Part shown: positions 1-62,300 of the stretch, one piece after another
Numbering within the stretch: the first letter of the stretch is position 1
Layout: every line of letters begins with the position of its first letter
Assembly: GCA_947179485.1 (NCBI GenBank)
Contig: OX359247.1
Coordinates: 8,833,060 to 8,897,059 of the forward strand
DNA: 64,000 nucleotides
Origin: Allacma fusca
Taxonomy: Eukaryota; Arthropoda; Collembola; Symphypleona; Sminthuridae
Direction of reading: 5' to 3'
Position numbers and translations under genes: made by a program
Notes under the pieces: model-generated
What the model was told of the DNA's origin: nothing
What the model saw: only the letters and a program-made list of their open reading frames with translations
Database searches by the model: none

Positions 1-280
1 AATGCTCAAGGTGCATGGAATGATAGGGAGGAGAAAGTAGGGAGTGAGTCTTGATATAAATAATGGGCGGGTAGAGAAATCCTTTCAGGTTTGATAAAAG
101 CAGTAAATAAATACTTTTTTAATTAAATCTAATTGCCCCAACGCTTGCTTAGAACAAGGCTTTCCCCTCCGTGGATGTGCTGTTATGATTTAAATAATAA
201 TAGGGTCCTGTCCTCACTCCTCCTAAAACTCCGGGTTTTATGAGACGCTAAATTTCTTGTTTTTTTTGTATTTATTCCAG
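1..280 (+). other. 3' end of an upstream intron
   Basis: No coding signal is seen. The stretch ends in a T-rich tract and the acceptor TTTATTCCAG at 271-280, just before the first coding exon. The intron is phase 1, because the exon needs one base from an upstream exon. A GGAGAAAGT word lies at 30-38. Confidence 0.75.
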
Positions 281-416
281 CCGTGCCAGAAATTCAAGTT
301 GATTCCATCCTTGGAGGCCGAGCCGAGTTTCCATGCGATTTGAGTCTAAATCGAAGAGACGATACAATTCAAATGGCGCTATGGTTACGAGATGGTTTTG
401 CCAAGCCCATTTATAA
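281..416 (+). CDS. Side-like exon A: first half of Ig1
   Basis: The exon encodes [12 protein letters not shown], then EFPCDLSL with the first Ig cysteine, then [14 protein letters not shown] with the core tryptophan. The acceptor is TTTATTCCAG and the donor AA|GTAAGT. Two bases at the start finish a codon from an upstream exon, so a signal peptide exon must lie outside the window. The exon ends after two bases of a codon (phase 2) that completes as Asn in the next exon. 'LGG.AE.PCD' and 'LW.RD' are as in Ig1 of Side proteins. Confidence 0.9.
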
Positions 417-1043
417 GTAAGTGCAAATTATTCCCATCCATGTCACTTCTGATATAATGTCCTTGTGTACTCTCAACAGCCAAATTTCCAGTGGGTAATA
501 TACCTATTTAGTATGTACATACTTCCGCGGAGCCTTTTTACATCAGCCACTGCCTAGAGAGCGGGGCTCTCCATGCAGACACCTTCCCTCAACATGGCAC
601 TGGCCAACACAGCACGTCCCTCTACTATCTTGACTCTCAACGACGAGATATGCCCAAATATGAAATACTACAGGAGAGCGGAGTAAGAATCATTAGAGCC
701 ATTGCGCTTGGCTAGCTCGGAAATCCATTGGGAAAGTGCTCTCGAATGTTGTTATGAGTTCTTGATGATCCACGTATGTAGGGATGTACACACGTGTGTT
801 GGGCTATACTCTCAGCATATGTGATTCCATCCTATGTCCCACTTCAGCCCCATCCAGATCCTATAAGCTCCATATATGTACTCACATATGGAGATGTATA
901 TTACACGTTGAAATGATCAAACAACTCGTCATATTTCCACTAAGGAAAATCCTCTAGGGAATTCCGAATTTGAAAGTATTTCAAAAATATAGATCTGTCC
1001 GAATTCTCTTGTATATACCGGAGGGATTGGGGTGGTGAAAGTC

Positions 1044-1081
<38 letters not shown>

Positions 1082-4000
1082 CTGTTGTAAAAAATGAGGA
1101 GGAAAATACATTGATTCAATAACCGCAGTCACATCTGCTCTTTGAAGCAGACGTGACATTCCAATGCGTATCCTCACTCCAAGTTTGATATTGTTGTGGA
1201 TACTAAATTTCCTAATTCTCCCTCAAAAACTTTCTCCGAACATTCATCAGGGACTAAAAATTGCTTTTAAAATTCCTCAACATAACCCATGACGGACCAC
1301 AAGGCTGAAGTATTTAGAGAATTCCAACGTGACTTACGGAGTCTCTCTCTCTCTCCCTCTTTCTCTCGCTTTCACTCCTACAAAAAAAATCAACAAGCCC
1401 ATATGGTAACTTCAAAGGTTGACGATGCAGATATGTACGGGGGGAAATCGATGGGTTTATTTTTCAGTAATGATCCTTCCGAGTCGTACTGGTAAGAGTA
1501 CCGTGGAACGCTGCTGTGGGTTGTCAGTTACGGAGTCAGGTTAATTTCAAGGCTGGACTGCACCTTCCCTGCAACTGTCTATGTGCATATTGACATTACC
1601 GTTAAATGGACTAGTCCGTGTACCTTTGAGTCCACCGTGCTCTTTATGACTAATTGAGAATTTAAGCTGGGTGCCGGCTTCCATCAAAAGTATGGATTTT
1701 CCTTCCCTCCCCACGCTTCCCCGTCTACGCTGGCATCTACTAGAGTCACTCCAAGCATCCCATTAAGCGTCCCCTGGCATTGACATGCAATTGTATGCAT
1801 CACATGAAATCGAATGCGTCGGGGAAGGTGCCCGCACGCACTACATTATATACTACTTCCAGGAGGGATTTTGAAGCACCTTTATGAAATCACCAGGAAT
1901 AATTGGATTTTCCCGTGCATTTACCTGATTGCATTCTAATGGCCGGTGACTGGGGGGTTAAATGTTCTCAATGAGTTCCTTTGCTAGTAGTATTTCAGGA
2001 GCATTGAACACATATTACTCCTGGTGATTACGACTTGAGCTTCTCCTACTACTCCTGGGACTACAACTGGTATATAGGTTAAAAATCTAGGGAGTCAATT
2101 AAATTTTTTTTAAACAATTACCAGATGCACTCACGTATGCACGTGACGTGGGAGAGACTCCCCAAGGGGAATTGTTTATTCCACAGTGCAGGGCTTTATG
2201 AGCCAATGTTCCTTGAGGCTTGCCAGCTTTAGGGTTTAACTTCGTGGTAGGCTTTACTACTTTATTTACCGGGAATTAATGGCAGGAAGAGTCATGCGGA
2301 GAGACATTTACTGCACTTGCATGACATTGTATTTATCATTACACGTGCATATGTCTACAGTGGAAACCCTTCATTAGCACCAGCGGAGTTCTCTATAGCT
2401 TTCTCTTTGGGTTTTAATTTTAAAATAGACTCAGACCCAAGGACATTCCTACGTACGACTCCACAGTTCCTGCTTAAATGTAATTGAGTAATTACATATG
2501 CTAAAATGTATAGATACTTCTTGCTAGACATTGCTACAGTAGGCCTATTATTGGACGAGGGTTTATCTATAGTCTAGACCCATAATGTGTCACACAGTCC
2601 TATTAATCCAATATTAATTTCTCTCGTGACAAAAAATCTTATAGCTACAAGGCAGTAGCTTTCTCCTTTTTGAGGATCTTTACGAAAGAAGGGGTACAGT
2701 CAGCTGGAGTTTTGCTACCCACTGCACTGCCATCACAGCAAGTTTGCACTGTTTTCCATGGGAAATATGTGTGTCTACAGTCCCTCCCGGGATCAGCAAT
2801 AATATCATACAGGAACATATAGATAAGTTTAAGTGTAACTGGAACCCGCATGTTTGCAACTATGTACGATCTCATCTCATAAATATTAAAGCGCTCCAGC
2901 GGGGTCGTATGTAGGAGAAGGACACTCACATAACTGGAAAGTTGCTCCGTACATGCACGCGTGTAGGCTTGGAAGGTATATACAAGTGAAAGTCCCAGAG
3001 ATGCACATAAGGCAGAGGGAAGCGTATCCCCAGCCTGTGTATTATATGACGGTAATGAAAACACCATTGAGGACAGCAGATGAGACATAAATCTTGGAAT
3101 CTTAACGTCCTCCATGCTAAAAGTTGCGGGTGGTTGGTCTGGAACAAAGTGCATGTGTATACAGCTCTCCCTGACGGGGCTCCTCGTTGAGATACATACA
3201 TATAATTACATGGGTATTATGGGGATGTCCATACGGTTCTGCCTGTACGACTGGGGGCCTACATCCCAGCCAGTGCTGCGATCGGGTCAAGTAATTTCAA
3301 AACTTGACCATGAACTTGACTTGACCACGAAACTTCAAGTAATTTTCAAGACACAACTTGAACTTGATAACTCGCGTTCGTGTAATTACTTGACTTGTCA
3401 AGTTCAAGTAATCAAGTAACTTTTGTAAGACCCGAACTTGATCAAGTAGTTAAAATACCAACCTTGACTTGAACTTGACTTGACCATGACTTGAACGCGA
3501 CTTGAACTTGATAATTCAAGTAAAGTATCACAAAAAATTAAACATGGCCACAATAGTTCGAACTTACATCAGCAAATTATTTCCTTCAGACTGAAGACCA
3601 AAACGCATTCAGAAAACAATTTTACTACTACTTTTTATTTGAAACCATTAGAGGACAACTTTGAGCGTGTACTGAATACAGTAAAAGTTCGATATAAGGG
3701 ACTATACAATTTATAAAGAAATTTCCCTTATACAAAACGTCTAAAGCATTGCGTCAATGAAAGTTGGAGTCAAACAAATGCATCCCTGATATCGATATTT
3801 CCTTATAAGCTAAGCCCTTATAATGGACTTTTACTGTATATCTGACGAGTTTTACATAGTATCAAGTTTTATTTAATGTTCATATACATATACATATACA
3901 TATTTGAGCATAGATAGCGAGTACTCTTAATTTAAAATTTAATAAACTAGTATTTACTTATTTATTAAATTCTTTTTGTAAAAAGCCATCCAAGCTCATT

Positions 4001-7000
4001 TTATACTGGAATTTATTTAAACAAGTTGAAACAAATAATAATTCTAAGCAACATTATGAATTATCAAGATAATTCCTTTATTTCATGGAGAGGCCACTGC
4101 AACAACTAACAATGAGCAACGTCTGGTAAGCAAGACCTTCATAAAAATGACTCTGATTTTGAATTTTGTCCTTTGATTGATGGCATATGCAAATAATATA
4201 CCCTGGACACGACATGAAATTGGATTGTGATTTTGAAATTGCTTCCGTCCTTTATGGCATGCGCAATCTAAAGTTACTTGAACTTGACCATGAAATCTCA
4301 AGTTCATGGTCAAGTTTTTTCTTTCCATTACTTGACCCTGAACTTGACTTGAGATTCAAGTAAATTTCTCTTACTTGTACTTGAACCTGACTTGTCTTAG
4401 AATGTCATGGTCAAGACGAGTACGTACTTGAACTTGACCCGAAAGATTCAAGTAAAAAAATTTACCTACTTGAACTTGACCCGAACTTGAACTTGACTTG
4501 AAAACTCAAGTATTACTTGAACTTGTCCGCAGCACTGATCCCAGCCAGTATCTGTATGTGTTTGCCAGGTCCACGTTTTATTTAGAGAGCAAGCCCACAT
4601 AAAATAGGAAAGGTTGACGCAGTTGAGGAGGTAAAGTTCTTGCATTAAATTCTGCTTGTTCCTGATCTCCGTCTTCTTTCGTATTCTTTACCGAATGACA
4701 GTTTGGATGTCCGTGGAAAGCCGTTTAGTGCTGCGCGTCATTGGTCTTCCCCCACTATGTTTGCCAACCGGGCACATTTCCGGACAAGCTCTGAGCCCGC
4801 CTGCCTCGTCATCGAGAATGTCCATTTGACCGATGAAGGCGTTTATCGGTGTCGGGTTGACTTCCGGAACTCACCAACGAGAAACTTCCGCTACAATCTT
4901 ACAGTCATTGGTAAGTGTGTATCTTTTCGTTTGATTTGATCCCCAGTGAAAGTCTATTTTTATAATGTTCCTCCCAATATGAACAAACCGTATACAATCA
5001 CTTGTAATGGAGGCTTGTACTGGATAGACACATAAAACCTAAAAGAGTATAATTAGCCCAAAATTTAATATCCGCCCGTCCTCCGGCCCTGCTCAGTCTC
5101 AACGATAGGAAATATACTCCAACCCGCCAGCAGTTGCTAGTCATAGGGGATATACATGGAATGCACATTACAGATTACAGCCATCCATAAATATACCCCC
5201 TTCCCTGGTCGTGCATACGTACAATTTACACTATTAAATTTCAAATGGTTCCAAGGCATTGGAAAGTTCTGGAACAAAGATGAGTCCAGGATCGATTCCT
5301 GGAGGAATCCAATATTGAATAGGATGATCAGCGTCCTTCCTCATGAGATGAGGAGACAATCTGTAAGTTACTCTCGGAAACGCACAATAAATTCCGAGGA
5401 TTGAGGGGAATCTTCCATCTCACCGACGGCTCATCCAAGTTTTGTATTCCGTTGATGGTGGCATAAATATCAGCATTACCATTCCTACTTCCATAAATGC
5501 CTCAATATAGTCAGATGATAGCGTTTATTTTATCACCTTATGTTTGTCATATATATTTTATGGTACGTTTATGGAAACAATTTCCTCGCCAGATTTTCAT
5601 CTATTTTTTTTAGTGCTCTTGTTTCCCCCTAAGTGAAAGTACAAGTACATTGTTACACGATGCATTATTCTCCCTCCTTCTCCTCCTCCCCTCTTCTAAG
5701 AAGTGAACAGAAACAAATAAAGTTTTCCTCTTTGACTCTCCTTCTCATCCTATTTACTTTTCCAGGAGAAATTTATGTTTACCCCTACTGGCGTCTATAA
5801 ATGTATTGATAAAAAGTATGGAGACAGCAGGGGAAATGTACGAATCTGTTGAAGTTACTTCACAGTACACAGTAGTTTCCTCCCATTAGTTAGGCATTGT
5901 TCCCGACAGCAAATACTGGAGGCCCGCAAAGTCAGCATCGAGTCTCAGTACATACTGTCCAACGCTAACTTTCTCCACATACTGTAGATTCTATGAGAAC
6001 GAGTTGCTGCATCTGTGTTATGTGTAGGTTCATATTTGTGTATGTTTTTCTGCTCAATAGCATCATGTAGGATACAAAACACAAGCAATCAGGATCATAT
6101 ACATAAATTTGGTTGTACATTGGCATAAAGTTTCCTTCCTGGAACAAACTGCATATGCAAATGCTTATTAGGAGTTGAGACACCCGAGTTGTTCTCTAAT
6201 GTGCAAGGGAGCAAAAAATTAGAGAAGTTCAAGGAAGAACGATGAGCCCACTGCAATTTCACCTCTTTCACTCCTGAAGGCATGAAAAACTCATGAGGAA
6301 GTATCCACTCAATGTTAGTAAAAACTTATTTTTTGTGTACTCATTCAAACATAGTGGGCAGGTATACGTATGTATGTATCTATTCATAAAAAGGAAACTT
6401 GACCGGAATAGAAGGTCTTGCAGTTCAAGCTTATCCTCACAAAATCTAATTTTTTAGCCAAACGTATATCTACGCATAGCAATTACATTAAATATACATA
6501 CAGGAGAAAGCACTATTTCACTTGGATACACGATTAGATACAACTCTCCACACAATATCGAAAGTACGGAGAAAGCATCATTTCCGCCCGATAGGATTCT
6601 TTATGCGTGTTTTTATTTTGAAGGTAAACAAACCATAACATGTACTAATAGAATAATATTGAACATTACTGTCTGTAATGAGATACGAATCGCTCATATA
6701 TGTAGTGAAAGCTTTAGGAATTCAGACTGACTGTGGCTCGGGGGGTAAACGATCGAACGGAGTATAATTTATATGTAGAGCCTATGGATTGTAGGAAAGT
6801 GAAGGGACAAAACAAATATATTCAATTGTATAAACAAAAGATAGGCTGACACATCACTTTCTCCTAATATCTGGAGAAAATGAAATGGAAACTGACTGAG
6901 GGTGTATGATCAAGTGATGACACATTTGTCGTTTTCTCCCAAGACACTTACATAGGAATTATGTCAGGGACTATACTCACTCGAGCGGGCTATATTAACA

Positions 7001-10000
7001 ATAAATTCTATGAGTATAACCCTAATATTTGATGACATGCCTACAGGAGCAATTTGTAGACTGACTCTTTACCCAGGCTCCAATATTTACATACACCGAC
7101 GCGTGAAAATAATGGAAGGCAGGGAGAGTTTTGAATTTAATATTATCCTTTATTTGGCCTATCTGTCTGTCTGGGTTGCAGTGCCTCCGGAATCGATAAC
7201 AATCCACGATGCGAGTGGGAGATTACTCACGAAAGTTGTGGGGCAACTGCGGGAAGGATCCGATTTGTCGCTCACTTGCAAAGCTCGGGGAGGTAAGTGA
7301 AATTACTTTTTCATGTTGAGCATAAAAAATTAATTAAAATAACAACCTCCAAGTAAATACAAATGGGGGACTAGAAGCTGGGACCCCTGAGGGTAAAAAT
7401 TAAAATGAAATGGACTTTGACTCCTAGATATGAAGACAGGTTAGCCAGTCCCACAAGACTGTTCTACTTTTAATCAAATAAATGCCCGGATCTTAATAAT
7501 TCTCAGGAAGTGAAAGCACAATAATGGAATGTCCTCCGAAAAGAAAAATCCTCTAGTTCTAATTCACTTTGTAAATGTGCCAAAGTCATAGTCTGGACCG
7601 TTAGGGTAAAATAGTACCAAAGCTGGGGACCAAACCAGTGCAAATATATCCGAGTTTATTTCACATGAGCAACTTCAAGTCTTTATCCCCATCAAGAGTA
7701 GAGATACTCATTTGGGCCCAGGCAATAAGTATTATTCATTTTCTATTGCCTTTCCTATTTGCTTCTTTAATGGGTCTTTATTATACATGGTCATATACAT
7801 ACAGAGTATAAATATATATTGCCATAATTATTAATCTTTTACACAAATGCGCAATTGTTTCTACGCATATCTACATATGTATAATTATGTACAACAGAAT
7901 CGGGAGTCCAGAATAGGCATGGATTCAAACCAATGAATTCTCCTCATGGTGCCATATACTCCGGGAGTACAGACCAGTACTTGGGGACTTAAGAATTATA
8001 TTGGCACAAAGCACAACAAAATAATGCAATGTATCAATTTTAAGGATAATTTTATGAGCGTCGTTAATAATCCTTCCTAACATGGCCAACAGGCGGAGCC
8101 GAGGCAATTGACCAAAGAGGTCCTCCGTTGGATTTCATAATTTATTTTGCATGAGCTCATTCCAGATCCCCTATTTATTCCCTTTAAATAAATAGAAAAG
8201 CCTGGCCACATTCCATGTCAAGTTTACTTTGGATAGTCCTCCTTTTGGAAAATCTAGTTTTGGACTGTGTGACAAATTAAATCGATTAATATCACTGGGA
8301 CCGATGTCCTAAACTGAAGGAAGCTTTTCATTCCTCCTAACTATGCACACTCATCACAAAAGCAACTCCGTCCGAATGCACGACACATGGGTGGAATACC
8401 TAATGTAATATTAATGGAGGCGACATTCTACTTTCTCCTGATATTTTTCCAATAGTGCAGTCTCCCCAATGGATATCTATCCTTACATACAGTATGTACT
8501 TAAAACCAAACAGATGAAACACTAGAGCTCCAATGGGACGATGTTGGGAAGGAATGTTTACATCATCCCCCCGTTGAGGATCTAATGGAAAACTGCACTT
8601 TATGAGAATCGATACCATTGATTCAAAACATGTGAATGCATAGCCTCACTTTCAATCCTAGTTATCAAGGAGAGATTTGCAGGTGTGCAGGTTTTACTCA
8701 CATTAGCGACAAATGTGCTTTCTCCCAGGTCCCTTAAAGTTATTTATAATGTGACTCCCTGGAATGAAAAATCCTTCAGGGAAAAATTGAATGAATTTTA
8801 ATACAGTCACAATTATGATTGTATACATAGATAGAAAATTCAGAAAAACCTGTCTGAGGTTAAAGAGCATTTAATTCCTGATGAGATGTTGGTAATTACA
8901 TTCCTATACATATCCATAATTTATAGTCTTTTCACCTTTTGTCAAAGTCAAATAGACAGGGACGTCTTAGGAGGATAAAGGCTTGAGCCTTGAAATGTAT
9001 GTTGGCAGCGTTTGCATCCTTCATGGTGCATGGTGCGGTTGGGATGATTTCTTGGAGAAAGGAGAAAGAAGACAGGAATGAGAAAAGCATGTGGGGAGAT
9101 GGTCTCAAGAATTAAAATCACTCATATTTATATATGGGCCTTGGAAATGGTGTAAAGATGGGGAAATAAAGCCCCTACTGATATTATGAGTGTTAGTGTA
9201 CTAATGCGGAGCTGAAGCCCTTCCTTGAGTGACTGCATGGTAACTCCAACCATAGAGACAGAGAGAGAGAGAGAAATATGCTGGGTGAAAGCAGGAGAAA
9301 ACTGGAGATTTTTTCCCCCGCTGTAATAAAACGCCCATGAATAAGTGTTGTCTGGATGTTAAGTCATGTTTCCCAATTCTGCATCTCTTATCATCTCATA
9401 CATCCATTAAGCCCGGGCGGAGCTATGCATATGCACCGTATGTATGTGTGCCCATGGAGGCTGAGACCCTCACATAGGGGGTACTATATAGGGCAACTCG
9501 CATAAACAAAGAAACAAAAGGAGGGCTGGGAACAAGCTTTGAACAACAGCGATGAAGTCAAGTCACTCAGCGTAAGAAGCTTGGTTGTTCGTTATGCAAA
9601 TGAAAAGAGGATGCTTTTAGGTCATAAACTTTAATAAGCTTAGCGTTTGGCCGAGGTCTCCCACTGTGTCATTGTTGATGTTTCAACTCCTCGGAGAATA
9701 CTCTCTTAAGATTAAGACAAGCGAGAGACAGAGGAAGAAAGGAGGGGAGTAGTAAAAGATGAAAATAACCAACACGGCATCGTATTACAACTATGGTTGC
9801 ATTTCAGAGACGCAACTCCCCTCCTCTGTATATGCAAGCATACAAGGCCTACGTACACTATACGTATAGATAGATATGTATGTCCATGCTATCATATGAA
9901 ACCCGCCAATGTTTCCATATACAGAGCAGCAACCACACATACATTGCCTTGACTTCCGACTGTCACCATAGCCCTGCCCAAGTACAACTAATAGGCAGGG

Positions 10001-13000
10001 CTGTGTCTCAATTCAAGTGAACTATCAAAAAAGTTGAAATTTGCGTAGTGAAAGTTTACAATTCTTTTACTGCCCTCGGTCTCAGTATTATTTCCTTCAG
10101 TCCCCCTCCCGACTGTCTGTTTATGTCGGCTCATATCAGTCAGCCCTTATTGTCACAATTTTATATCCTCGCCCTCCCTCACAAATGAGCCTGGTGTAAT
10201 TACCCCCGCGGAGAAATTAAACATCTCTTGAATACATACCAAAAATCTTCCCAGCCCGGAACAAAACCTTAGAAAGAAGGATTACAAATTTTATATGATA
10301 AACTCCCATCACAAAATATTTTATGTCCCCGAGCAAAACTCTTAAAATAGTGTCTAGCACAGATTTGAATTTAAAATAACCTACTTCCCATGCTTTTCGC
10401 AAGTGATAAAATGTCTCCTGAAGGAAGTTCCAGAGAATAACAAAAGCATTGCTTCAGAAATGATTGAAAGGAGACAGGTCTTGATGCCGGGCTTGAATTT
10501 CAACACAATTGTTACCTTTTACCAAAGTCATAGTTCCGTATCTGGTAGTCCCTACAGCTACTATTACTGCTGCCCGGAGGGTGAGTAATCTCCAAGAATC
10601 TTGAATAACAGCCTGTCAAAACTCAGATGTTGTGGAACCAAGGGGAAAGTACAAAGCACAAAGGGAAAGTGCTTCCTTTGTGTTTTCCAGAAGGAGCTTC
10701 CTTGCCCGAGAAATTTTCTCCAACTTTCACTCAACTTTTATAAATGCCAGAGTGAAAGTGAAAACCCAGTTCTCAAAACTGTTTCAGTGCTAATTATAAA
10801 CCTCGTGCGTTCAAATAGTATACTCTTTTCAGAAATTTCTCTCAAAACCATTCAATACTTAGGATATTCTTTCCCCCCGCAGAATTCTAATGCTGGGAAT
10901 GTATTGTCTTAAATATTCTACGCAAAATTCCGCACGCACAAAATATAATCCTTGAGATTGCTTTCCTATTAGAATATGCGGAACCGCCGGGGTCTCATGA
11001 GTATCAACTTGTAATATCCATTTAGTTAGTTTCCCTTGGATATTCCAATCCCCGGTTGGCCTAAAAATATACTCATGTATTGAGATCCTTGCCAAAACAT
11101 ATATGTATGTATGGATGAGGTTGTAAAGGAACATGAGACGTGATGAAGCGTATGAAGACTTTCTGGGCCTGAGATGAAGAGTGAGGAAAGAAAGCAGAGA
11201 TGAGAGAAACTTGTTATTTAGCTCCTTTACATACTGCTCGAGTGAGGTACATATGTAAGACAGGATTGAATATGGCGGAGCTAGAGAGAGAGAGAGAGAC
11301 AGAGTGAGAGTGAGAGAAAGGGAGAGAAAGCTGGAAGATGAAGGCAATTTTTGTTGTGTCAAAACCACAATATTGATCAGAATATAAGTAAAGAATTTTG
11401 GGGGCTCTGGGAAAGGTAAGGTGTTCATAGCACAATATCAACTTTTACGACCAGAAAAGAGAATCAAGACATCAAACCCTGGTGCAGGTAGCTGGTTTTG
11501 TAGGAGAAAGTCTCCGTATGTACATATCTATAGGTATTTGTGTATCTACCTATACCTGTGGAAGTAGAGACTGGATGAGACGTGAAATGTTGGAGACAGG
11601 GAAAGGGCCAGGAAGGAGAAGATGCTCCTTATATTCAACTATTCTGTCAACCTCACTCTCCGTCCTCCACACGTACCAAAGGAAACTTACAATAGGTTCG
11701 GAGGCTAGAGAAAAACTCGGAAATCCGACGCCAAGATCTCACACCAAAGTTTACACTTATTACGTCTGAAACCTGACACTGCTTTAGAAGTAATAAAATT
11801 CAACCTATCGTGACAAAATCCTTACGGTGACAATAACTTGATTTATTACCTGCGGCAACACCCGGCTACCTATTGTCTAACAAAATTTCCTTCTTTCTCA
11901 TCTCCCTTCCCTTTCATCTTTTCATTCCATCTCTGGCCATGGACTTTCTCCCTACTCCCGATGAGGTGTCCTGACCCCCTGATCCTCGTTCCTGGAAACC
12001 CACAGTGAACAACAAGCCTGGCTTTGACAAACAATAACTTATTTAGACCCTCCTCAAATTCAATTCCCATTTCTAGGGACTACTTTGAAGAAAATTGGGT
12101 CATTTTTGAAGCTTAAATTAAATTTCGAAAATTTTGCATGGGTAATTTGACGTAACTATATCTCTTAATTCCTCCATCAAAATTGAAATTAGTCGTAAGC
12201 GTGAGTTCTTGGCGTTCCCGTCAACGTCAAATTGCCTCGGGTTGTGCAGGTAGGAAAAATCCGGACCTAGTGTAACTCTGGGAAATTAGAGCTGGGAGTC
12301 GTAAGAACTGCCGGAGCGGGGCTCCTCACTGCATAAAAGGGGACCACACGAAAGCTCATAAATATAATCTTAATAATCATGTGTTGTGGGTGTGCGGTTC
12401 ATTACGTTGGGAAGTAGGCTTTTGTAGGGGTTGACATCAATTTATACCAGGTCCGTATAGTAGTTATCACTGATGTGGAAGGAAATTAAGTTGCCTTTCT
12501 TCATGAGCTCGCATAATTATTCAAAGCTACTGTTTAAAGCTATTACCATCCTCGGCCTGACTACGCCTACGGAGAGGGAATGGTCAAGTCAGTTCGGGGC
12601 TGATGGAGTTGAGCGGCTCGGGCCTGGGAGTTCATTTACAAATTGTAGTAGCTCTGGTTGTGTCACACATTGCCCATTTTTGTTCCATGTCCGTTCCCTA
12701 CAATTATTCTCTAGACTGTATTTATCTCTGCAATAGCTTCTCCCCGCTGTAATGCACCGCAAATAAATTCTAATGTACGTCATTATTCCATTTCCAGTGA
12801 ACACGAACACCTGTTATCGCAGGAGAAGCCGCTCTTTTGTCATTTGTCTCCTCTTTGTGGATTTACGTGCTAAAGTATGGGATATCGTAATTTATTACCT
12901 TGCATACTGTACTCCCGGGTGTGTTTGCATATTCATGTTTGTGGTACAGTGGGTCATGCCTTGCATAAGATTGGGAGGAATTATTTCCTAAAAGGCTTTC

Positions 13001-43801: not shown

Positions 43802-43835
<34 letters not shown>

Positions 43836-51200: not shown

Positions 51201-51508
51201 AATTTATTACAAAAGGACACGGGACTATAAGTTGTTCTCCTGGAGCTGGAAGGAGCAGGAGTGGGGACGACGGCGTTGGCGGCCGCGGAGAAAGTGGGAG
51301 CTTTTGTTCCGAGTTAATTGTAACAAATCATAATGTGGGCGGACTTCCTGGGTGTTCATCATCATCTTGGTTGACTTCTTATGGCAATAGTGTACTTGGG
51401 ATGGACGCCAGGAAAAGTTTGTTTTCACACTTGGACTCCTCCCGTTTGTAACAAATAATGTGGCTGTCAGTGTATTGCCCGGGAGAAATACTCGACTGTA
51501 TGCAAGGA

Positions 51509-51543
<35 letters not shown>

Positions 51544-54136
51544 TCCTTTCCCTATGAAATACGGACTGGATTGAGGAGCGTCAAGTGAAAGTCCGGAGGT
51601 TTGGGGAAGAATGGTGGATATAAAAACCTATTATGTAAGAGCCCTATCGTGGCTCAACATCAATGCCCCTAACAACTCTATTTCCTCCTGGCTACATAAA
51701 TCCGTGGGATTGGGAAGCCCGGCCTGAGCACAGTCCTATATACATACAGCCCGGTCAAATTTCATGCTCCGCTCGGCCGCCACTGACCAAAACCATAACA
51801 ATCATCGGAAATTTGATGGACAGCAATAGCAGGGTCATTTGTACACACACGGATTTAGATTTTCTTTCAATTTTTCATCCAATTGATCTTACGACCCTTA
51901 CTTAGGGTAAGTGTGATTTGAGCCTGCCCACCCCCATGAAACTGCTGGTTTAAACGGAACTGTACTACATCCATCCGGTCATGTGGATTCCCACAGTCAA
52001 AGTGTACTTTCCAATGCCATGTCTCCACCCATGTTCCGAGTCAATTCCATCAGGTGTACTTACGCCTATATCTGTAGAGGACCAGCCTGGATATTTCTCC
52101 AAGAGAATCTATTATTGTTGGGAAAGTGCTGTCTACCTCCACAGAGTAATAGGAGTACGACAATGGGAGTAGGAACTTGGACCAAAATAAAATCCTGCAT
52201 TACATGACACTCAAGGATTTTGACTCGGAGGACAATTTTCTTGGACAATACGGGGCTCTCCTGTGCGGTAAGCTCCGGAGGAGGGGAAATGGGTCAACGG
52301 AATAATTTTTTATTCGTAAGTAGTTGTCGATTTAATGAGTACGGACAAAGTTTAGGAGTCCCTTGGATATTTTTCAAGACAACGAGCAAGAAAGAAAAGT
52401 CCTTTCGTTTAGCAATTCAATGGACTGCGCCCCTGGGGCCGATTCCATGGCCTTTTCACAAGAACTTGGAAACCGTGCAGGAGGTTCGTTTGCCCCTCGA
52501 AAATAGTACGCACTTTATACAAAAGACACCTTCACACATCCCAGCCTATTCTATATCTATATCTTCCGAGGGATATGGGAACTATAGCGCATTACACGCA
52601 TGCAAATTTTCCCTTTCACCGTCCACAAACTATTCCTCACACTTTTGCATTTTTCCCTCCCTGAGAGGTGTAACGGGAAATTTACTTTTCATGGGAGCCT
52701 TACAGATCTTATCTATAGGTATTTCATCTCTACTGAGTACCTGTAGCATTCGTAGGAGCAGTGGCGTCTCCTTATACAAGCACCCAGTTTTACGGGGAAG
52801 GTAGCAGATTCAAAATCAAACGGCACTATTCCAAGTTCTATTGGACCCACTTGAATCCAAAGGGTCTTTATGCACTGGCTTGAGGAGGAATTCTTTTTGA
52901 CGGATTTTAAAGTCTGTGTTTAAATTCATGGACCTCTAATTTCATGCTGCGTGGGAAAATACATTTATAGGTTTACACATGAGCTTATAGACAGTCCCTA
53001 TACATTTTAAGGATATCGACAGACATTACAAGATAAAAGTGATGCCTTTCCCCTCCATTCCACCTGCATAGGGGGGACTATTTGACTGGATATGGCTTTG
53101 AGATGTGAACTCCTATTTGAGGAAGCAGTGCAAACAAGTAGGAATTTTAAAATTGGATTTTTTAAACATGGCCAGGAAGGAATACATATGGGAAGGTACT
53201 TTGCCACGGGAGAAGACAAAACATTGGAGGAATAGAACTGACTGCAAATGCATACAATGGGAGTAAACCGGAACGAAAGTTTAACAATAATATAAAGTTT
53301 GTGAAAAAAAACGATATTGCTTTAAGTTAGAAGACACGGTTGAGGAAGTTGTTCACAGGGCTTTTGTACTTTTTTTTTGGGGTAATGCAGTGTAATTTTA
53401 GGCGTCACTACACAAAAAAAAACCAAGTTGTTTTTGCTTTCTTTCCTCTATCTATCCTTATTTTTACTTTCTCTTTCCTTAAGTCATCTTCCGGCTGGGT
53501 TTCTCCTCACATGAGTCCCCTCCTCATACATCCTCCAAACTTGTGCTCCCAGAGCCATTCCCCTTAAGCCAACACGCTCAATTTTGTATTCCGTTTGTAC
53601 GTCTCCAGGAAATTGACACTCGCTCAGGAGGAATTGAAAACTATATCCGGGAGGGAAGAATACTCTTGAAAAAAAAACTTATATGAATGATAATCCAAGG
53701 ACTGTCTCTTTGATGTTTTTTTGTTTTGTTTTTCCTTCGGAAATTTATCCAACACTTGTATAAGGTTTCCCCTGAAAAGTTAATCAGTATCTTCCGTACG
53801 AGCGTATTGACATGGGCTGTCACAACCTCGGAAATATTTTTCATGATATTGTTTTATTTCCCAGTCGCAATTCTTCCCTTCCGTTTAAATTTAATACCTA
53901 ACTTACGTCCAGGGATTCTCACACATGTACACACTCAAGTTGTGAACTTTGGGGCCTCCATAGATTTGAGGGAATGTTCAAGTGTCGGGATGTGCCTAAG
54001 GTTCCTTTCTCTCAAGTCAGCTGAAAAATCGTCGACAGGACAACATGAAGATAAAGAAGAGGAAGACGGAAAGGGGGAGGAAAACATACCGTTCTGCCAA
54101 ATTTTATCAGCAACAACATCCATACACAGAGCTGAC

Positions 54137-54140
<4 letters not shown>
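48276..54140. other. Downstream intergenic sequence, first part
   Basis: No gene is recognised. The open frame at 52220-52804 (194 codons, plus) has no motifs or family resemblance. A GA microsatellite lies at 51513-51541. GGAGAAAGT at 51287 and a cluster of CTTTCAC, GTGAAAG and CTTTCTCC near 49330-49370 continue the dispersed motif. Signals of single exons from a neighbouring gene could be missed by eye. Confidence 0.55.
51513..51541. repeat. (GA)n microsatellite
   Basis: About fourteen uninterrupted GA dinucleotides before AAAATCC. Confidence 0.92.

Positions 54141-54172
<32 letters not shown>
54141..54172. repeat. (CT)16 microsatellite
   Basis: Thirty-two bases of pure CT following GACAATT. 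Confidence 0.95.
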
Positions 54173-54175
<3 letters not shown>

Positions 54176-56550
54176 CATTGGCTACTACCCCTCCTTTCTA
54201 TACGGACTTACTGGCATGGACGTCTACGTGCATACTTGATGAGTGATGGTACTCACTAAAGGCAAAGGAAAAAACAGCTGTGGACTGCTTTTGTTTGTAG
54301 CCCGATCTTTCAATCCTTTGACAATTTCCTTAACAGAATACACTTTACAGTTTTATATCAAGTGTAGTCACTTCCCTTGATTCCACTTTCCTTGTGTCTC
54401 ACATTCGGAAGGGGCCAGGGGTATACAACATTCTCCGTGAGTATGTACATATGTGGATACAGATAAGGTGCTCAAGGAGTCATAAGCTAAACGTAGATAA
54501 GTGACACGCGTTGATGTCATTTATTATTCAGGGACTTCCATAAAACCTTCATTGCTAGGAGGGTTTGGGATCGGATCGTCCATACGGTATAGACCACTGA
54601 CCGTAGTAATTACATAACCACATACTAAATTCTCCCTTAGCTTCCTTTCAATGGTCTTTGGAATATGTGAGAGGCAGAGCATTTAAATATGAATCCTTAT
54701 GTATGTATGTATGTATGAACGTATGTGTGTATATGTATGTATATAATCACCCAAACTGAATTCTATAGCCTTTGTTATCCCCACCATTGAAATCTCGAAG
54801 CAAGTGCTTTTCAAGGATTGAACTAAATTTCGCCAGTCCTATAACACTCGGACCTATGTCAGCATGGGATGCTTCTATATATGTACATAACTATCGTAGG
54901 TATAGAGATGCAGCGGACATTGAAAGCATACTGCGTAGGTATTGATCCTCACGTTAAATATTGCGTTGCAGGAGGCCGATGACATTCCCATCCAATGATT
55001 TATCATCTTCCATTTACTCGCTATGTTACCTCAACACTATTTTCTTTCACTTTGAATTGAACTTTCTCCCTTGGATTTTTCTCCTTTCTCTCCTTTGGAC
55101 TCCAGTATAGCATCTAATCACAAGTATTGTATCCACAAACGTGAGACTTCCTTTTCTTCCTCTGACTTACACATGCATTACGCTCTGTGAGGAGGCATGG
55201 ATACATGCATGCGTGGATGCTCCAACAGTTGGCATTAAGCTCATCTTGTTTTTTTTGTACCTGCTGAACGAGGAAGCTGTGGGAAGGACGCAACTGTACG
55301 TTTTGTTATGAGAGTGTATGTAATTAGATATGGATAGATACATATGTGCAATATACCCACAAGAAATCAACAATCCAAGCAGCAAGCTGTAAGTTTGGAG
55401 GGGAAGGTTTCGGAGGGATGCGGATCCAGTAGAGATGCATTCTCTGTAGATACTTATATTGACGTATATGTAAAAAAAAAGTTAGGGAGTATGTATCTAT
55501 CTATATGTAATACAAAGCATGTGTGTAGTCTCGGGAACTATTGCTACCAAAGAATTATATCACTTCTGCCTGAGAGAACAAAGAGAAAGAAAATGTAATC
55601 AGACAGTCTCATCCGAGCATGTGCTTCTGCATACATACTATGTAATCGCAATGAAATCTTTCCCGATTCTAGGTCAGAAGCACATCACATCTTCATTCAC
55701 CCATTCAATGTGTTCATATTACCTCGTTGAATCCCGTCCGCTCACAGGTATATATATGCATAGGGTTGTTCAGGGATTGGCGAGGCCCTCATTAAAAATG
55801 TACTATTAAAGAAACCTCTGCAGCTTTTTAAGTTCCATGGATCTAGGGGCTTACATCTGCTCCCTATCTTTATACATGGGGGTGTGCACGTATTTATTTC
55901 ATGTAGTTATAGAGGGAAATATTCCACCATTTAAAATACAAGCACTTCAATTTCAAAAGACAACCCAGTTCTACAAGTTTTTAACGTTTCACTGCTCGTC
56001 AGAGGAACCACAATTTTTCCTAGTCTCCTGCCTTTTCATCCCATAAGAGCATGATCCCGGCTTAACATAAATAATTATCTAAACTTATTGTAGTTTGAAT
56101 TAAAAGCTTAGTGTAAGGCTTCAATTTCATTTGGATACATGCTCAGCAGTTCGGTCAGGCGTTTAGGCAACCTTTAAATATATGGGTTGACTCCTGGGAA
56201 GAGATACTCATATTTCTGCGGAAAGTTACATTACGTTTGGTTTCTACTAAACCAGCATCCAAACTTACTCTTTAGGGATACATTTCATTTTCGTCTCCCT
56301 CCCTTTTGCGAAATTGTGTAGGTGCACAATTATGTAGTAAAATAAGGACCCGTGTCAAGGAATTAAATACAATTTCCGATGTTCTATGATGATGATATTT
56401 TTGATGTAATGTAACTAATGATGTTTCAGTGGGCAATACTTCAAGTTTGTTAAAATCGTTCAGAGCAATATAAAATGTAGTATTTGGATCCTAAGTACGA
56501 GGGCAAATAGGAACTTAAAACTTTTAAAAATTCCAAACCTTTTCAAAGTA

Positions 56551-56610
56551 AAAGAGATACATAGGTCAACAGTGGAGTTAAAAGAGATACATAGGTCAAC
56601 AGTGGAGTTA
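56551..56610. repeat. Exact tandem duplication of 30 bp
   Basis: The unit AAAGAGATACATAGGTCAAC plus ten more bases occurs twice with no difference. This suggests a recent duplication or, less likely, an assembly artefact. Confidence 0.93.
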
Positions 56611-56885
56611 AAAAGCAGTTCAGAATGGTAGAGAGTGAAAGTAGAGAAAATTCTCTGCTGTGTATAGCCTTACTTTACTTTTTTAAGCTGTATTGTAATT
56701 GTGTAATTATACATAGATATATGTAATTATGTAGAAGGGAAAGTTTGTGCGTCATAAAATATCATAGAGAATATAAACAGTTGTTTGTATTTTCCTGCCT
56801 ACTGTTCGCTACTTATACTTGACTTTATAAACCGAAAGTAATTTACTAGGACTTAAATGAATCAATAATTCATTAGGTTGAATGA

Positions 56886-56929
56886 GAGTGAAAGTTGGTG
56901 AAAGTTAGTGAAAGTTTGCTTTCACCTGG
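56886..56929. repeat. Triple GTGAAAGTT array with inverted copy
   Basis: GTGAAAGTTG, GTGAAAGTTA and GTGAAAGTTT follow each other at 10-bp spacing, then GCTTTCACC in the opposite sense, which allows a small hairpin. It is a dense spot of the GTGAAAGT word. Confidence 0.8.
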
Positions 56930-59236
56930 AAATATTATATTAATGAGACGCGGAAAAGCACTACACATATGTAGCAATTATTGCCCTACGATTTGACCAT
57001 CCATGGATATGAGGGGGAGAAAGATGCAGGAATTCCTAATAAGAGTTGCATTTAATTAAAAATGGATGGATTGACGGAGATGCAAAAGTTGAACTGCCAT
57101 CTATTGCAGCTGTGGATCTAGTTGGGTGAGCAATTTTTGGTAATTAAACTAAATAAAATACAAGATGTTGATTAAAACAAGACATGTAGCTAATGACAAT
57201 GGTGGGGTAAAAAGTGTGGAGTGCGTTTCCCCCATCCAATGCGACGACGGTATTGAATGACTGCAAAGCTACTCAGGCCATTGAAGTCAAGACTCCTGCA
57301 ATACAGCTAGTTTTAATGGGAAACTTAATTAATTTCCGGGTGAAAAAGAGCCAGTAGGGAAAAGAGAAAATTGTTCGTGAGGTACTTTCATTAGACATTT
57401 GAATCTCCGAGGGTTTGTCCCAAGGCCCAGTGTACATCCCGTAAAGTGTACAAAATTACACAAAATGGGACATTGAGGTGAAGTTAACGAACCTGATGAC
57501 CTCCTTAGTACTCATAAATTGGACAAAGTTAATGTTTGTTCAACTTTAGCTGCAAATGCTCCAGCGTAACTTTCACTTACAATTTTTCACTCCCCCACAC
57601 ACTCTTCCCCAGTCTTTCATGTCCACGTACTTTTCTTCCCAGTTTATGAAAGTCGAGGGCAGGCTGGGTTTTTTGGAGAGTAAAACCCAGAAATTTGTGA
57701 CCAACTTGATTAAAAATTGGCTTTTAGCCGTATTGCACAACTAACCAAAACTTTCTTTAGTCGTCAAATGGGAAAGTTTCCCCTGTTTCCAAGAGCCAGT
57801 ATTTATGTCAATAACTAATTAAAGCTTGCAGTTTTCACTTGTTTGTAATGCAAATAAAACAGACGTATTTCCACAAATATAGTTGATCTACTAGCTGTAT
57901 GTATGTGCATACTCGTGGTTCGAGGCTTCTGTTCTTACCAAGCAGATGAAAGAAGATTCGTCGTATTTAAAGTTGTGGAATAAAGTTAGGAAAAATTTTG
58001 ACCGCTGTAATAAATGTTAGAATGAAGTGAAAGTGCTCTCGGGTCTCGTCGTCTTCAAACTTTACATTAGAAGAGTTTCTCACTAGCAAATGTGGGACTT
58101 TCTCTTTGGATGTACGTCCCTGTAGCTTCTTGTAGAGAGACATGTGCTTTCATGTGGTGTCTTAAAAAATACGTTATGGACTGCTAAACTAGCTAGCGGG
58201 ATATTGGTGGACGTGCTTGTTGTTATAAAGGTTGTAGGTAGGTCGTTGGATGTCGGAGAAAGTGTCATCTTTGCGTGGGTAAGTAGTCGATTTTTCATTA
58301 AAGATAAAGCTATAGTAGCTTCGACATCTTTGATGAGATTAAATTGAAAGCCCCCATAATGGATGCATGAAAGAACTTTTTATTTCTTTTATGAATATTC
58401 AACCGGGTGGAAGGATATACTTTCACCAGCCAGCACTTTTCCTTCCTTAGCTTTTCCTTCCTCTCCGTCAAATGCGTACTCTATTATAGGGAAAGTTGAC
58501 GAATTTCCGAGTGCTTTTCCCGTTTCTCTCACACTCGTGTCCCTTCACACCATATCCCCTCTGGAAACATTGCTACTCTCCCAATTAATATATATGCACA
58601 TCAAACCAAGAAAAAAGCTCAAAATAATTTCAACTCAAAAAAACTTATTCGTTCGGGCTGGGTTGACGGAATATTTTTGGGAGGGAAAATTACATTACAA
58701 CGAATGGAATCTCCCCATCTACAATCTATGCATATGCACTTATTTAAATTCCATGTTTTACATGCAGTTCTCAGAAATCACTACACTTGAAAAAGCGAGG
58801 AGCAATCAATTCCACTTTTTAAAAACTTCTTTCTCCTTCACTCGTTTTTCTTTTGTCCCTCATTGCACATCGACCATTGACATGAACAGGGTCTCTTCCC
58901 CTCCATTTCTCACCCCCTACTGTGATCTCTTTTATTCTGCGTTCCAATAACTAAAAATACTTCCTCTTTCCACTCTACCTCTTGTCATATTTGATGAGCT
59001 AGGAGAAAGGCTTTAGAAATTCCTATGGGATATACACACGCTGATTTGAAATGTGAAATCACATGTGCATATCTACAGTCCCACTCAAACTAGCTATAGA
59101 TAGTTTAGAAACTGTAATTTTTGGATGAGGGTATTATGGTGTTTTGATATTAATAGGAAATGAACTTATTGCTAATTCCTCCTTGCAGTAAACTTTGCTA
59201 CTTTAATTAGATACTCAAGATATTTTTGTCCTTCCG

Positions 59237-59334
59237 TCAAGCCTAAGACTAGGGAAAAGGTACCATTAAGTTGAGCCTAATTCTAGGGAGAAAGGTACCC
59301 TCAATTGAGTCTAAGACTAGGGAGAAAGGCACCA
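59237..59334. repeat. Three tandem copies of a 33-36 bp unit
   Basis: Each unit contains a CCTAAGACTAGGGAGAAAGG-like core followed by (T/C)ACC. Copies begin near 59237, 59273 and 59306 and differ at several bases. The GGGAGAAAGG part relates to the dispersed GGAGAAAG word. Confidence 0.8.
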
Positions 59335-62300
59335 GTGGGGAACCTTACTGTGTGTAAATGTTTCAAGATATTTTAAACTGTTTGAGGGTAAACGAACAGT
59401 AGAGAGTAGGCTGTATATGAAGCCGTACCTTATTATCTATGAGCTCTAGGAAGGAAGGCAATACTCATGGAGAAATATTTTCCTCTTGTTCACCCAATCT
59501 GGGCCATTCAAATGAATGGATGCTTTGTTATTTCTTGCAAATCCAGTCCCAATATATACTCTGATAGTAGATGCATCAAGCATGAGTACAGATGTATATT
59601 TCGGCTTATTCATGGATGTACAAATGTGAGCTGTAGAGATGTGCTTGGAAGGGAACCGTGAGACTAAGAAAGGATGACATCCCAGCATGGGAGAAAGTAA
59701 AGTTGTGCTATATCCCCCGGGATTTTGTAGCATTGTTCAGACTGGGGCATGCATATGAGTGTGAGTAAATATACTGAGTATAGGATGTAGACTCTCGCTG
59801 ACCTTGCTCAGAGAAAGTTATTAAGTGTCAAAAGTTTCGCAATTCCCTGTCCTCTCGTCCTCGTAATTCTAATATTACTGTGCAAATTTTGAATAATTTT
59901 ATGTTGGAAGTATCCCATAGAGCCAGACTCTCCCAGTGGTCCTCACCGTTGAGGAATGAGATCGTCATCATAAATTACGCTTACATCCTAGCCTCGCGTG
60001 ACATTCCAACTAATCATGCGAATAAAAAAATAGACTTTTCTTCGACTTAATATTTCCAAGATTTTTTCCGATATAGCGGGGAGGAAAATTCGCTCAATAT
60101 AACCCTCGCGTATGATTAAGATAAATTGGTCGTATAAGTTGGAACGTGTGTTACCATACACGTAACTGACTTAGAAATAGATGGTTGACCCTCTGGTCGA
60201 CTGTCTCAGCTGGCTCTCGCTCTTTTCCTTTTGACGTCGGGGGAATATAAACGGCACTGGGTGCTATGTTCAACTGTCTCTCTCTTTCTCCCCGGACCGT
60301 TCAATTCCTGGATCCTACAGATGTAATAATGTCAGAACCGTAACATCTCCTCATGTGCTGGACATGTTCATCCATTCTCTTCATCCAGTAGCCTAGATAA
60401 TCAACCAGGCATAGCTTAGCTGTCATGAATCAAATTGTCGAAGGATTGGTGAGACGGGATTCTTAAACCACCATGTCTTCCAGCTCGGGAGGTTGTTTTG
60501 GGTTAAATTTTCTCCCGACCCTGCCCTTCCATATTGCTCCTTTTGGCTTTCAAGGAAAGCGTTACAAAAATTGAACTCCAATATTGTACATCCAGAGTTT
60601 CCCATAAGGACAAAAAAAGGTTGCTCGTAGCTGCCCTAGGTATATGGATCCTTGAAATATATGAGGAGGAATTTGATTCATAACAAGCAATGATGATACT
60701 GATGTAGACGACAATGTTCTTATATAGGGAGAGGATTATTCACCTAAAGATGCTCATTGTTGCGGCTGATAGAAAACTCGACGTGACGTAACCAATGACC
60801 AAATGATTCTGAAAGGGAGAGAGAAGAAAATGTAATTTGAAATGTCATTCAGGACAATAAATGGCTTTCATATTATGCGCTCGGAAAAATTTCCGATGAA
60901 ATAGAACCTCGGAACATCATCCAAATAAAAGAGGGATCTTTAAGCTCCCTCACATTCTCCCATTGTCCCTCTGCTCTCACCCATATGCCTTTGCATGCTA
61001 TTTTTCTGGTTTAGACTCGAAAAGAAGGGATGACAGACGTGAAATATGCTGTGTATGTAATTACAATGATTAAGATTTTATATGCAGGTAGCATGTAAAA
61101 TACCCGTAAAGTACTCCTTCTCACCCTGTTGCTGCGTGCCAGGGTTTACACACCCACAAGGGTTCATAGAATATCTTTTCACGTAAAATGCAAATGCATA
61201 AGAAATTCTCTCAAAGGATAATATACTTTATGAGGTGACGAAAATGTTCAAGATGTTTTCTCCCTACTTTCTCTTCCCTCCCTCCCTTCCTCCGTTGAAA
61301 CTTTCACTCCTTGAATAATAAACCATGTGCTTTTACCTTCCTTCTCAAAGTACTTACGGAGCCATGGGTGTTAGAAATAGTAGAGCGTACTTTCTTCAGG
61401 TTCTTTATGGAAATGCTATCTACGTAATACGCTGAGCTTGGATGTGACTATGTATATCTATACATATATCCAGTTGTAGATTATGCATAGTATGTATCTA
61501 GAGGGGAAAGAACTATGTATATGTAGAGTGCATAACCATGCTGAGGAGACAGGAGGGCTTTTCCAGCTGGCTTGGAGATTTTTACATTCCAGTTGCTATT
61601 ACTACTTTGCAAGTCAACATTTCATTTAAATTTAATTTATGATTAATAACACGGCTCTCCTGCAATGATTTCTTCCCATCATAAATGTCATTGTCATTGC
61701 AGTCTTTTTGTTGCACATGGCTGCTGCGGCAGTTCCCAAACAATTTCCTCCTCTCTCTGTCTCTATCCATCTGTGGTAACTTGGAATGCCCATTGAGGAT
61801 GCGAAAGCTCTTTCACCACCATTTCACATTAGATTTCAATTCAGAAATCCAGCCATCATCAACATATATAGTAATCACTTTCCAGGGCTTTGTTCCATGG
61901 GAAATTCGAGCTCAATGTACATACTCATGTTCAAATGTTCCCAGTGCTCTGGAAGGAGCTCATGTTGTGCATACCTGTGGGAGAGCTGGGACCAAGATAC
62001 TCCGGTCGTAGATATGCATCCGCTAAGGACCTGACGATCTTCCTATACAAAGATATGCATACGAAACCAACCACATCCACTCACAAAAGATAACGGTCTA
62101 ATGCTCATTTCATATTAAATAGTAATAGGTCTTGACAGGTTCCTTCCACACGTATAAATTACTTGAACAAAAGGCTGCTAACGCTAGAAGTCATCCCCTG
62201 GAGCTACAGAATTTACCCTAATTTTTATTCTAATGTCCCATAAAATTTCCTGCGTTCTTTCCAGTCCTACGAATCAAATTACTCCATAGGAGCTAAGACA

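Follow-up and report, generated by a model that had tools for sequence, protein, structure and literature searches.

A degenerate nine-base motif, RGWGAAAGY, occupies 116 sites (65 on the plus and 51 on the minus strand, about one per 550 bp) in a 64-kb stretch of chromosome 3 (chr3) of the springtail Allacma fusca (contig OX359247.1, positions 8,833,060 to 8,897,059), which we call the window. We consider it probable that RGWGAAAGY is the half-site of a sequence-specific DNA-binding protein, densely placed through selected chromosome domains of this species; that such a protein reads the motif is a step we infer from the sequence. The observations behind this proposal are the motif itself, its uneven, domain-like density, the geometry of its pairs and the unrelated flanks of those pairs that were fetched. 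The feature is real and strong, and it is wider and better structured than in the earlier note on this DNA, which had noticed one of its members, GGAGAAAGT.

All 33 copies of GGAGAAAGT reported in the earlier note were present, 19 on the plus and 14 on the minus strand, and every coordinate was correct except 59691, which is actually 59690. The claim that the word lies far above chance was confirmed. One hundred dinucleotide shuffles gave a mean of 0.71 copies and a maximum of 3, and Markov models of order 3, 4 and 5, trained after masking of the motif family, predicted 1.5, 1.8 and 2.9. Models trained on the unmasked window, which partly contain the answer, the higher orders having learned GGAGAAAGT itself, predicted 2.4, 4.6 and 13.6 copies, so that at no order from 3 to 5 was a similar count obtained. 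Once microsatellite words were set aside, GGAGAAAGT was the 9-mer with the highest count in the window.

The tolerated positions of the wider motif were deduced from the counts of neighbouring words. Its members in the window are GGAGAAAGT (33 sites), AGTGAAAGT (24), GGAGAAAGC (16), AGAGAAAGT (13), GGTGAAAGC (9), GGTGAAAGT (8), AGTGAAAGC (8) and AGAGAAAGC (5). Against the 116 sites observed, Markov orders 3, 4 and 5 predicted 7.0, 9.4 and 11.1 with the sites masked and 10.7, 22.6 and 47.7 unmasked. RGWGAAAGY had the top z-score among the 4000 commonest motifs of equal degeneracy pattern, by a narrow margin (41.24 versus 41.18 for GA-microsatellite words). Tolerance is graded at positions 1, 3 and 9, and positions 4-7 are strict; the base before the GAAAG core is A in 66 and T in 49 of 115 aligned window sites, and the C form was found at 1 site. 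Outside the nine bases, information in these 115 sites did not exceed 0.12 bit over 30 bp on either side. Such near-informationless flanks bear out the view that the copies are not simply those of one transposon and, together with the unrelated flanks of all 12 fetched pairs described below, led us to reject a transposon origin of the sites.

With its first site at 30 and its last at 63457, the whole window (1..64000, no strand assigned) constitutes a motif-rich domain that may extend past both window ends. Gaps shorter than 30 bp between unmerged sites, which reflect pairs and arrays, numbered 19 against 6 expected. When sites less than 60 bp apart were merged (116 to 94), their counts in 2-kb bins followed a Poisson distribution (dispersion 1.05, P 0.39), the gaps between them were exponential (Kolmogorov-Smirnov P 0.52) and their density showed no correlation with GC content, CpG or GAGAGA (rho 0.21 and P 0.25 for the last). 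A homotypic enhancer cluster, for which over-dispersion was sought, was rejected on these values, and density over the whole window combined with a Poisson spread makes a chromatin role at the level of domains more likely than single enhancers. GA microsatellites, in a period-2 or period-4 context, do not account for the word either, given the lack of correlation with GAGAGA; the lead of the motif in z-score over GA words is slight. None of the 116 sites fell in the roughly placed exons of immunoglobulin (Ig) and fn3 type, a small target (1,773 bp) in which 3.2 were expected.

Geometry of paired sites

A sampling pattern, GGAGAAAGTNNNNNTCAS, matched the genome 104 times (control 14), and 100 of these matches were listed. 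Among the matches listed, CTT stood directly before 27 of the 55 TCAC rows and before none of the 45 TCAG rows; CTT before TCAC makes a facing GTGAAAG half-site. Twelve of the 27 facing pairs, each from the group of 19 in which A precedes CTTTCAC, were fetched together with 25-base flanks on either side. Inspection by eye showed unrelated flanks in 12 of 12, and 11 of the pairs completed a second full 9-mer in the form GGAGAAAGT-N-ACTTTCACY.

A facing-pair pattern with variable spacer, GGAGAAAGTN{0,12}RCTTTCWCY, gave 188 matches genome-wide, symmetric pairs being scored on both strands, and its reversed control gave 1. The 100 rows listed represent 89 distinct places, or 87 after merging of a local tandem repeat on chr2; they span chr1, chr2, X1 and the first 34.7 Mb of X2. 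Across the 87 pairs, spacers of 0 to 12 bp occurred 5, 19, 21, 2, 5, 4, 8, 5, 6, 1, 4, 7 and 0 times, so that 40 had a spacer of 1 or 2 bp against a uniform expectation of 13.4. The spacer-2 sequence GGAGAAAGTTGACTTTCACT was identical at five of the listed places (chr1, chr2 and three times X1), one of them a local tandem, and this recurrent facing pair may be a repeat; with GGAGAAAGTTGACTTTCACT counted once, a spacer of 1-2 bp was still found in 36 of 83 listed pairs (hand count). Same-strand neighbours in the window and in the motif-rich islands described below favoured distances of 9-10 bp and 18-20 bp, partly owing to tandem arrays. Several pairs, GGTGAAAGT-C-GGAGAAAGT among them, combine halves of two sub-forms, and such mixed pairs speak against fresh duplication. 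Taken together, the strict core with graded edges, the flankless sites and the favoured facing spacing in unrelated sequence point to candidate side-by-side protein binding.

Neutral birth and decay of copies should leave many words one change away from the motif. One-change near-misses at core positions 4-7 showed no excess (59 versus 58.7 expected), and a simple neutral decay model, in which each intact site is accompanied by about 1.25 one-off words, called for an excess of about 136 near-misses where 61 were seen; the mutation model behind these counts is crude. The missing decay halo at positions 4-7 and the pair geometry disfavour a simple mutational signature, which the earlier note had offered as one possibility.

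Density across the genome

The genome searched comprised 392,743,791 bases in 91 contigs. GGAGAAAGT occurred 13,079 times and its reversed form 3,132 times, a control mean of 8.0 per Mb. Over 10.87 Mb of chr1, covering the first 100 places listed, GGAGAAAGT reached 9.2 per Mb, compared with 516 per Mb in the window. In 22 stretches chosen by place, 13 of them on chr1 and all together comprising 193,584 readable bases, we found 9 sites of the RGWGAAAGY family, where 13 were expected, and no GGAGAAAGT. Leaving out the incomplete stretches L001, L002 and L020 and the short L022, the remaining 18 poor stretches of 10 kb held 9 sites in 180 kb, that is 0.5 per 10 kb.

Motif-rich islands were found through an 18-mer, GGAGAAAGTGGAGAAAGT, which had 53 matches in the genome (reversed control 0), forming 41 loci after 3-kb merging. 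Eight 3-kb loci were returned and one, L028, was dropped as overlapping L027. The seven islands retained (1 on chr1, 6 on X1) held 42 sites in 20.1 kb outside arrays, a mean of 21 per 10 kb. With arrays included, RGWGAAAGY density per 10 kb was 18.1 in the window, 29.8 in the islands and 0.5 in the poor stretches. Since they were chosen through the motif, these loci establish the existence of islands but say nothing about their frequency. GA repeats and TATAGAT were also denser in the window and islands, where GC content was slightly higher. Sampled motif loci cluster: 54% of gaps on X2 were below 200 kb against 20% expected, with the same tendency on the other five chromosomes, which suggests domains of up to hundreds of kb.

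The 18-mer loci were distributed as 1 on chr1, 3 on chr2, 7 on chr3, 8 on chr4, 6 on X1 and 16 on X2, corresponding to 0.012, 0.040, 0.106, 0.136, 0.108 and 0.333 per Mb. For GGAGAAAGTNNNNNTCAS, the 100 of 104 matches listed gave 0.134 per Mb on chr1, 0.145 on chr2, 0.393 on chr3, 0.255 on chr4 (first 27.5 Mb), 0.288 on X1 and 0.603 on X2, with a control genome mean of 0.036. Restricting the listed matches to tails seen once left 0.037, 0.026, 0.27, 0.146, 0.18 and 0.458 per Mb in the same order; this count keeps 59 rows, and the 41 dropped include 26 of the 27 facing pairs, so real sites were lost too. Listed facing pairs reached 0.049 per Mb on chr1, 0.317 on chr2, 0.612 on X1 and 0.721 on X2 (first 34.7 Mb). 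Chr1 is thus nearly free of islands and X2 is the richest, X1 resembles chr3 and chr4, and chr2 lies at background in one sample and is intermediate by facing pairs.

These densities bear on the earlier note's speculation about a protein-binding site of genome-wide use, akin to a dosage-compensation motif. The binding-site half agrees with the position-weight-matrix-like motif, the uninformative flanks and the pairs with 1-2 bp spacers. Genome-wide use does not hold, as the sites are concentrated in islands, with sampled chr1 at background and chr2 at background or intermediate. An X-chromosome dosage-compensation motif was rejected because the window lies on an autosome and X1 does not exceed chr3 or chr4 in density; yet no chromosome is richer than X2, and the two X chromosomes together hold 22 of the 41 18-mer loci where 11 were expected (P 0.0003), an excess due to X2. 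In Allacma fusca, male embryos eliminate one X1 and one X2, and the sperm of males contain a single parental haplotype (PMC10427803, PMC9630974). The genome note also describes a heterozygous chr3 inversion between about 5 and 45 Mb, and the window falls inside it (PMC10427803).

Known systems and competing explanations

Short words dispersed over whole domains recall the Drosophila dosage-compensation motifs (MRE/GAGA type; PMC2848247), but here the word is not specific to the X and is no GA dinucleotide repeat. A second parallel is with bacterial DNA uptake sequences and Chi, likewise short words vastly over-represented on both strands with unconserved flanks; unlike them, RGWGAAAGY belongs to an animal genome, is uneven across chromosomes and forms facing pairs. 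Tandem and inverted copies about one helical turn apart also resemble homotypic transcription-factor clusters in enhancers, although the sites here, apart from pairs and arrays, are Poisson over 64 kb and do not form enhancer-sized clusters. Judged by titles, literature searches on springtails and paternal genome elimination turned up no paper on such a motif; a search for GAGAAAGT as a whole word with motif and genome gave no paper, and among the 20 titles listed of 422 papers containing GGAGAAAGT, none dealt with a genome-wide motif.

The PRDM1/Blimp-1 consensus is (A/C)AG(T/C)GAAAG(T/C)(G/T), with a pyrimidine before GAAAG where our motif has A or T, and owing to this A/T the motif was not filed as a Blimp-1 site. 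The full consensus occurred 1.09, 0.47 and 0.11 times per 10 kb in window, islands and poor stretches, respectively. In agreement with a PRDM1-type GAAAG(T/C) core that does not accept GAAAC, RGWGAAACY was found at 0.62, 1.89 and 0.5 per 10 kb, the island value resting on few sites, and the GAAAC form was not enriched in the window. An IRF/interferon-stimulated response element, which would call for a GAAANNGAAA direct repeat at 6 bp and acceptance of GAAAC, was rejected: GAAAGYGAAA occurred at 0.78, 0 and 0.28 per 10 kb, and GAAANNGAAA showed a mild excess (2.97, 5.21 and 1.17). According to excerpts of three papers, GAAAG followed by T or C marks the Blimp-1-bound subset of IRF-like elements (PMC4497732, PMC9220827, PMC6448932), and the GAAAG plus T/C core is what RGWGAAAGY shares with the PRDM1/Blimp-1 site of IRF-E type in two of them (PMC4497732, PMC9220827). 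Unlike at Blimp-1 sites, tandem GAAAGYGAAA is rare here, and excerpts of PMC4497732 and PMC9220827 do not mention domain-wide density or facing pairs. A C2H2 zinc-finger protein of PRDM1/Blimp-1 type, to which the GAAAGY core points, is a tentative candidate for the reader.

Under the reading we prefer, RGWGAAAGY sites fill selected domains, the 64 kb of the window at least, at roughly one every 0.5 kb and stay at background in the poor stretches sampled. Adjacent copies, about one helical turn apart, either in tandem (9-10 bp start to start) or facing each other across a spacer of 1-2 bp, as in GGAGAAAGT-W-ACTTTCACY, would allow side-by-side, probably cooperative, protein binding. The even spread would suit an action on chromatin throughout a domain (silencing, insulation or coordinated expression) better than single enhancers, and selection or conversion drive may hold the sites in place. 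Most likely, then, the sites would act as a domain-wide regulatory mark maintained site by site. That they amount to a new chromosome-domain recognition code, in which a protein on dimeric RGWGAAAGY would mark domains of up to hundreds of kb through sites kept by selection or conversion drive, we think rather unlikely; if true, the mark could serve chromosome recognition or domain-wide silencing in a lineage whose males eliminate X1, X2 and one parental genome. The 19-bp facing pair offers a concrete probe for the protein, and the domain map could be set against chromatin, recombination and the elimination of parental genomes in globular springtails.

Several observations weigh against the proposal of a domain-wide mark. 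To our knowledge, a domain-wide enrichment of 10- to 36-fold is above any described for transcription-factor sites, which is also what makes a dispersed word with dimer geometry, so enriched across an animal chromosome domain, of interest. Chr1 supplies 11 of the 18 poor stretches, the islands were picked via a motif-bearing 18-mer, and one island (L030) carries just one site beyond its array. Random small probes gave no clean division between rich and poor: those placed 0.03 to 2 Mb from the window on either side held 9 sites in 12 kb, and probes of 3.5 kb each held 2 sites on chr3, 2 on X1 and none on chr4 or chr2, while the X2 probe had just 1 site in 8 kb, though X2 is richest by pattern counts; individual probes of 1 kb and 0.7 kb are too small for ranking chromosomes. 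A composition classifier that split its training sets was ambiguous on the 1-kb probes. The ratio of observed to expected CpG was 0.41-0.64 in the window and islands and 0.66-1.00 in the poor set, but CpG depletion was rejected as an island mark, because probes of chr3, chr4, X1 and X2 with few or no sites were depleted too. Pooled small-probe values (3.5 to 110 kb each) of 0.82 for chr1, 0.96 for chr2, 0.61 for chr3, 0.63 for chr4, 0.39 for X1 and 0.58 for X2 show that depletion tracks chromosome more than island, and these differences may reflect different germline methylation. Near-misses over all positions exceeded expectation (190 versus 129), mainly at positions 3, 8 and 9 and slightly at 2; partial tolerance at these four positions is a plausible source. 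Finally, there are genomic copies, and also identical facing pairs, that look like repeats.

The sites could also be ordinary regulatory DNA, the islands being gene-regulatory landscapes of enhancer-rich, long-intron cell-surface genes that share a common transcription factor, an explanation we regard as possible but on balance unlikely. The window does contain Ig and fn3 exons, and GA repeats and TATAGAT are likewise denser in window and islands. Ig_3 loci gave at least 149 matches, with 150 of 510 candidates scored, and 56 loci after 50-kb merging; a sampled motif lay within 30 kb of 7 of them, where shifting predicted 1.5 (P 0.0008). At 5, 15, 60 and 120 kb the P values were 0.04, 0.007, 0.02 and 0.01 (five distances, uncorrected), and from the motif side 4 of 143 loci lay within 30 kb (P 0.07), so that the tie of islands to Ig-type cell-surface genes is no more than suggestive. 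Homeobox loci (at least 100 matches, 150 of 163 candidates scored) showed no association with the 143 merged motif loci, a small set hand-picked from three patterns and partial for chr3, chr4 and X2: none had a homeobox within 25 kb (1.9 expected) and 4 had one within 100 kb (6.6 expected), neither deficit being significant. Homeobox landscapes as the basis of the islands were accordingly not supported. Listed homeobox matches formed 2 loci on chr1, 5 on chr2, 18 on chr3, 29 on chr4, 24 on X1 and 8 on X2, and are thus rare on the two largest chromosomes, chr1 and chr2. Against ordinary regulatory DNA stand also the unclustered, Poisson-distributed merged sites and an enrichment far above what is usual for such DNA.

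Meiotic or conversion drive, in which a motif-bound protein biases repair so that motif alleles are copied and sites pile up where recombination is frequent, seems quite improbable as the explanation. It would fit the fall of 18-mer locus density with chromosome length (Spearman -0.94, n=6), a similar trend in the unique-tail densities among the matches listed (about -0.77, hand-computed), the rise of GC as chromosomes shrink (PMC10427803 Table 2) and the absent halo at positions 4-7. However, there are only six chromosomes, the scarcity of homeobox loci on chr1 and chr2 means that gene content could make the trend, and drive alone leaves the pair geometry unexplained. About as improbable, or a shade more so, is a neutral by-product, within GA-rich domains, of local slippage, short tandem duplications and a mutation bias towards purine-rich sequence. 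Motif cores lying in tandem arrays at six window positions, the surplus of gaps below 30 bp and the GA-richness of the islands agree with it, but the single-base neighbours GGAAAAAGT and GGAGAGAGT are absent from the window, AGTGAAAGT has no GA-repeat character, site density does not follow GAGAGA, and slippage does not yield inverted pairs with a preferred spacer in unrelated flanks. We find it very improbable that the 9-mer was left by decayed copies of one ancient dispersed repeat. Same-strand GGAGAAAGT pairs exactly 1,159 bp apart at no fewer than 4 listed places on chr1 are a dispersed repeat holding two copies, four identical motif contexts in steps of 6.6 to 7.4 kb at chr2:72473621-72494315 form a large tandem repeat, and one facing-pair sequence recurs at five listed places; yet the flanks are near-informationless at the 115 window sites and unrelated in the 12 fetched pairs, and the 2% of the window that matches other fetched stretches is a hAT-like element without motif sites.

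Sites and other elements in the window

Some of the sites form arrays. Four exact copies of GGAGAAAGT form an array of 12-bp period at 13642..13698 (plus strand), three AGAGAAAGT follow each other in 10-bp steps at 20969..20997 (plus), and 18-bp tandem units carry GGAGAAAGC/GGAGAAAGC/GGAGAAAGT at 41735..41779 (plus). Mixed orientations, with no strand assigned, are found at 56887..56926, where AGTGAAAGT-GGTGAAAGT-AGTGAAAGT in 10-bp steps is followed by an inverted partner 11 bp start to start, and at 49334..49366, where three sites alternate in orientation at start-to-start distances of 13 and 11 bp. Same-strand pairs comprise the spacerless GGTGAAAGTGGAGAAAGT at 23987..24004 (minus) and two with a 1-bp spacer, GGTGAAAGT-C-GGAGAAAGT at 34640..34658 (plus) and GGTGAAAGC-T-GGAGAAAGC at 62372..62390 (minus). 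A divergent pair, ACTTTCACT-GAG-AGTGAAAGT, lies at 16046..16066 and a convergent one, GGAGAAAGT...ACTTTCTCC, with starts 23 bp apart, at 19751..19782 (both without assigned strand).

Single copies of GGAGAAAGT on the plus strand lie at 30..38, 11503..11511, 16678..16686, 25979..25987, 28502..28510, 32804..32812, 33815..33823, 37609..37617, 38727..38735, 51287..51295, 58255..58263 and 59690..59698. Those on the minus strand lie at 1229..1237, 5968..5976, 6856..6864, 8430..8438, 11943..11951, 19592..19600, 31126..31134, 37265..37273, 45260..45268, 46082..46090, 46578..46586 and 55061..55069.

The Ig and fn3 exons span approximately 20490..41440 (plus strand) and belong to an Ig-superfamily gene, possibly sidestep-like, with many sites in its introns; a further Ig-like open frame lies at 4649-4936. 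Rfam at gathering thresholds returned no match in the window. The hAT-like element, a non-autonomous transposon at 3271-4537 with ends cagtgctgcg/cgcagcactg, an 8-bp duplication ATCCCAGC and no motif site, contains subterminal ACTTGAACTTGA repeats and is the source of words such as TCAAGTTCA; with a copy in a fetched chr1 stretch (L012) it shares 91% identity over 1291 bp. A tandem array at 47987-48281 consists of a 28-bp unit carrying GCAGAATTCTGTG.

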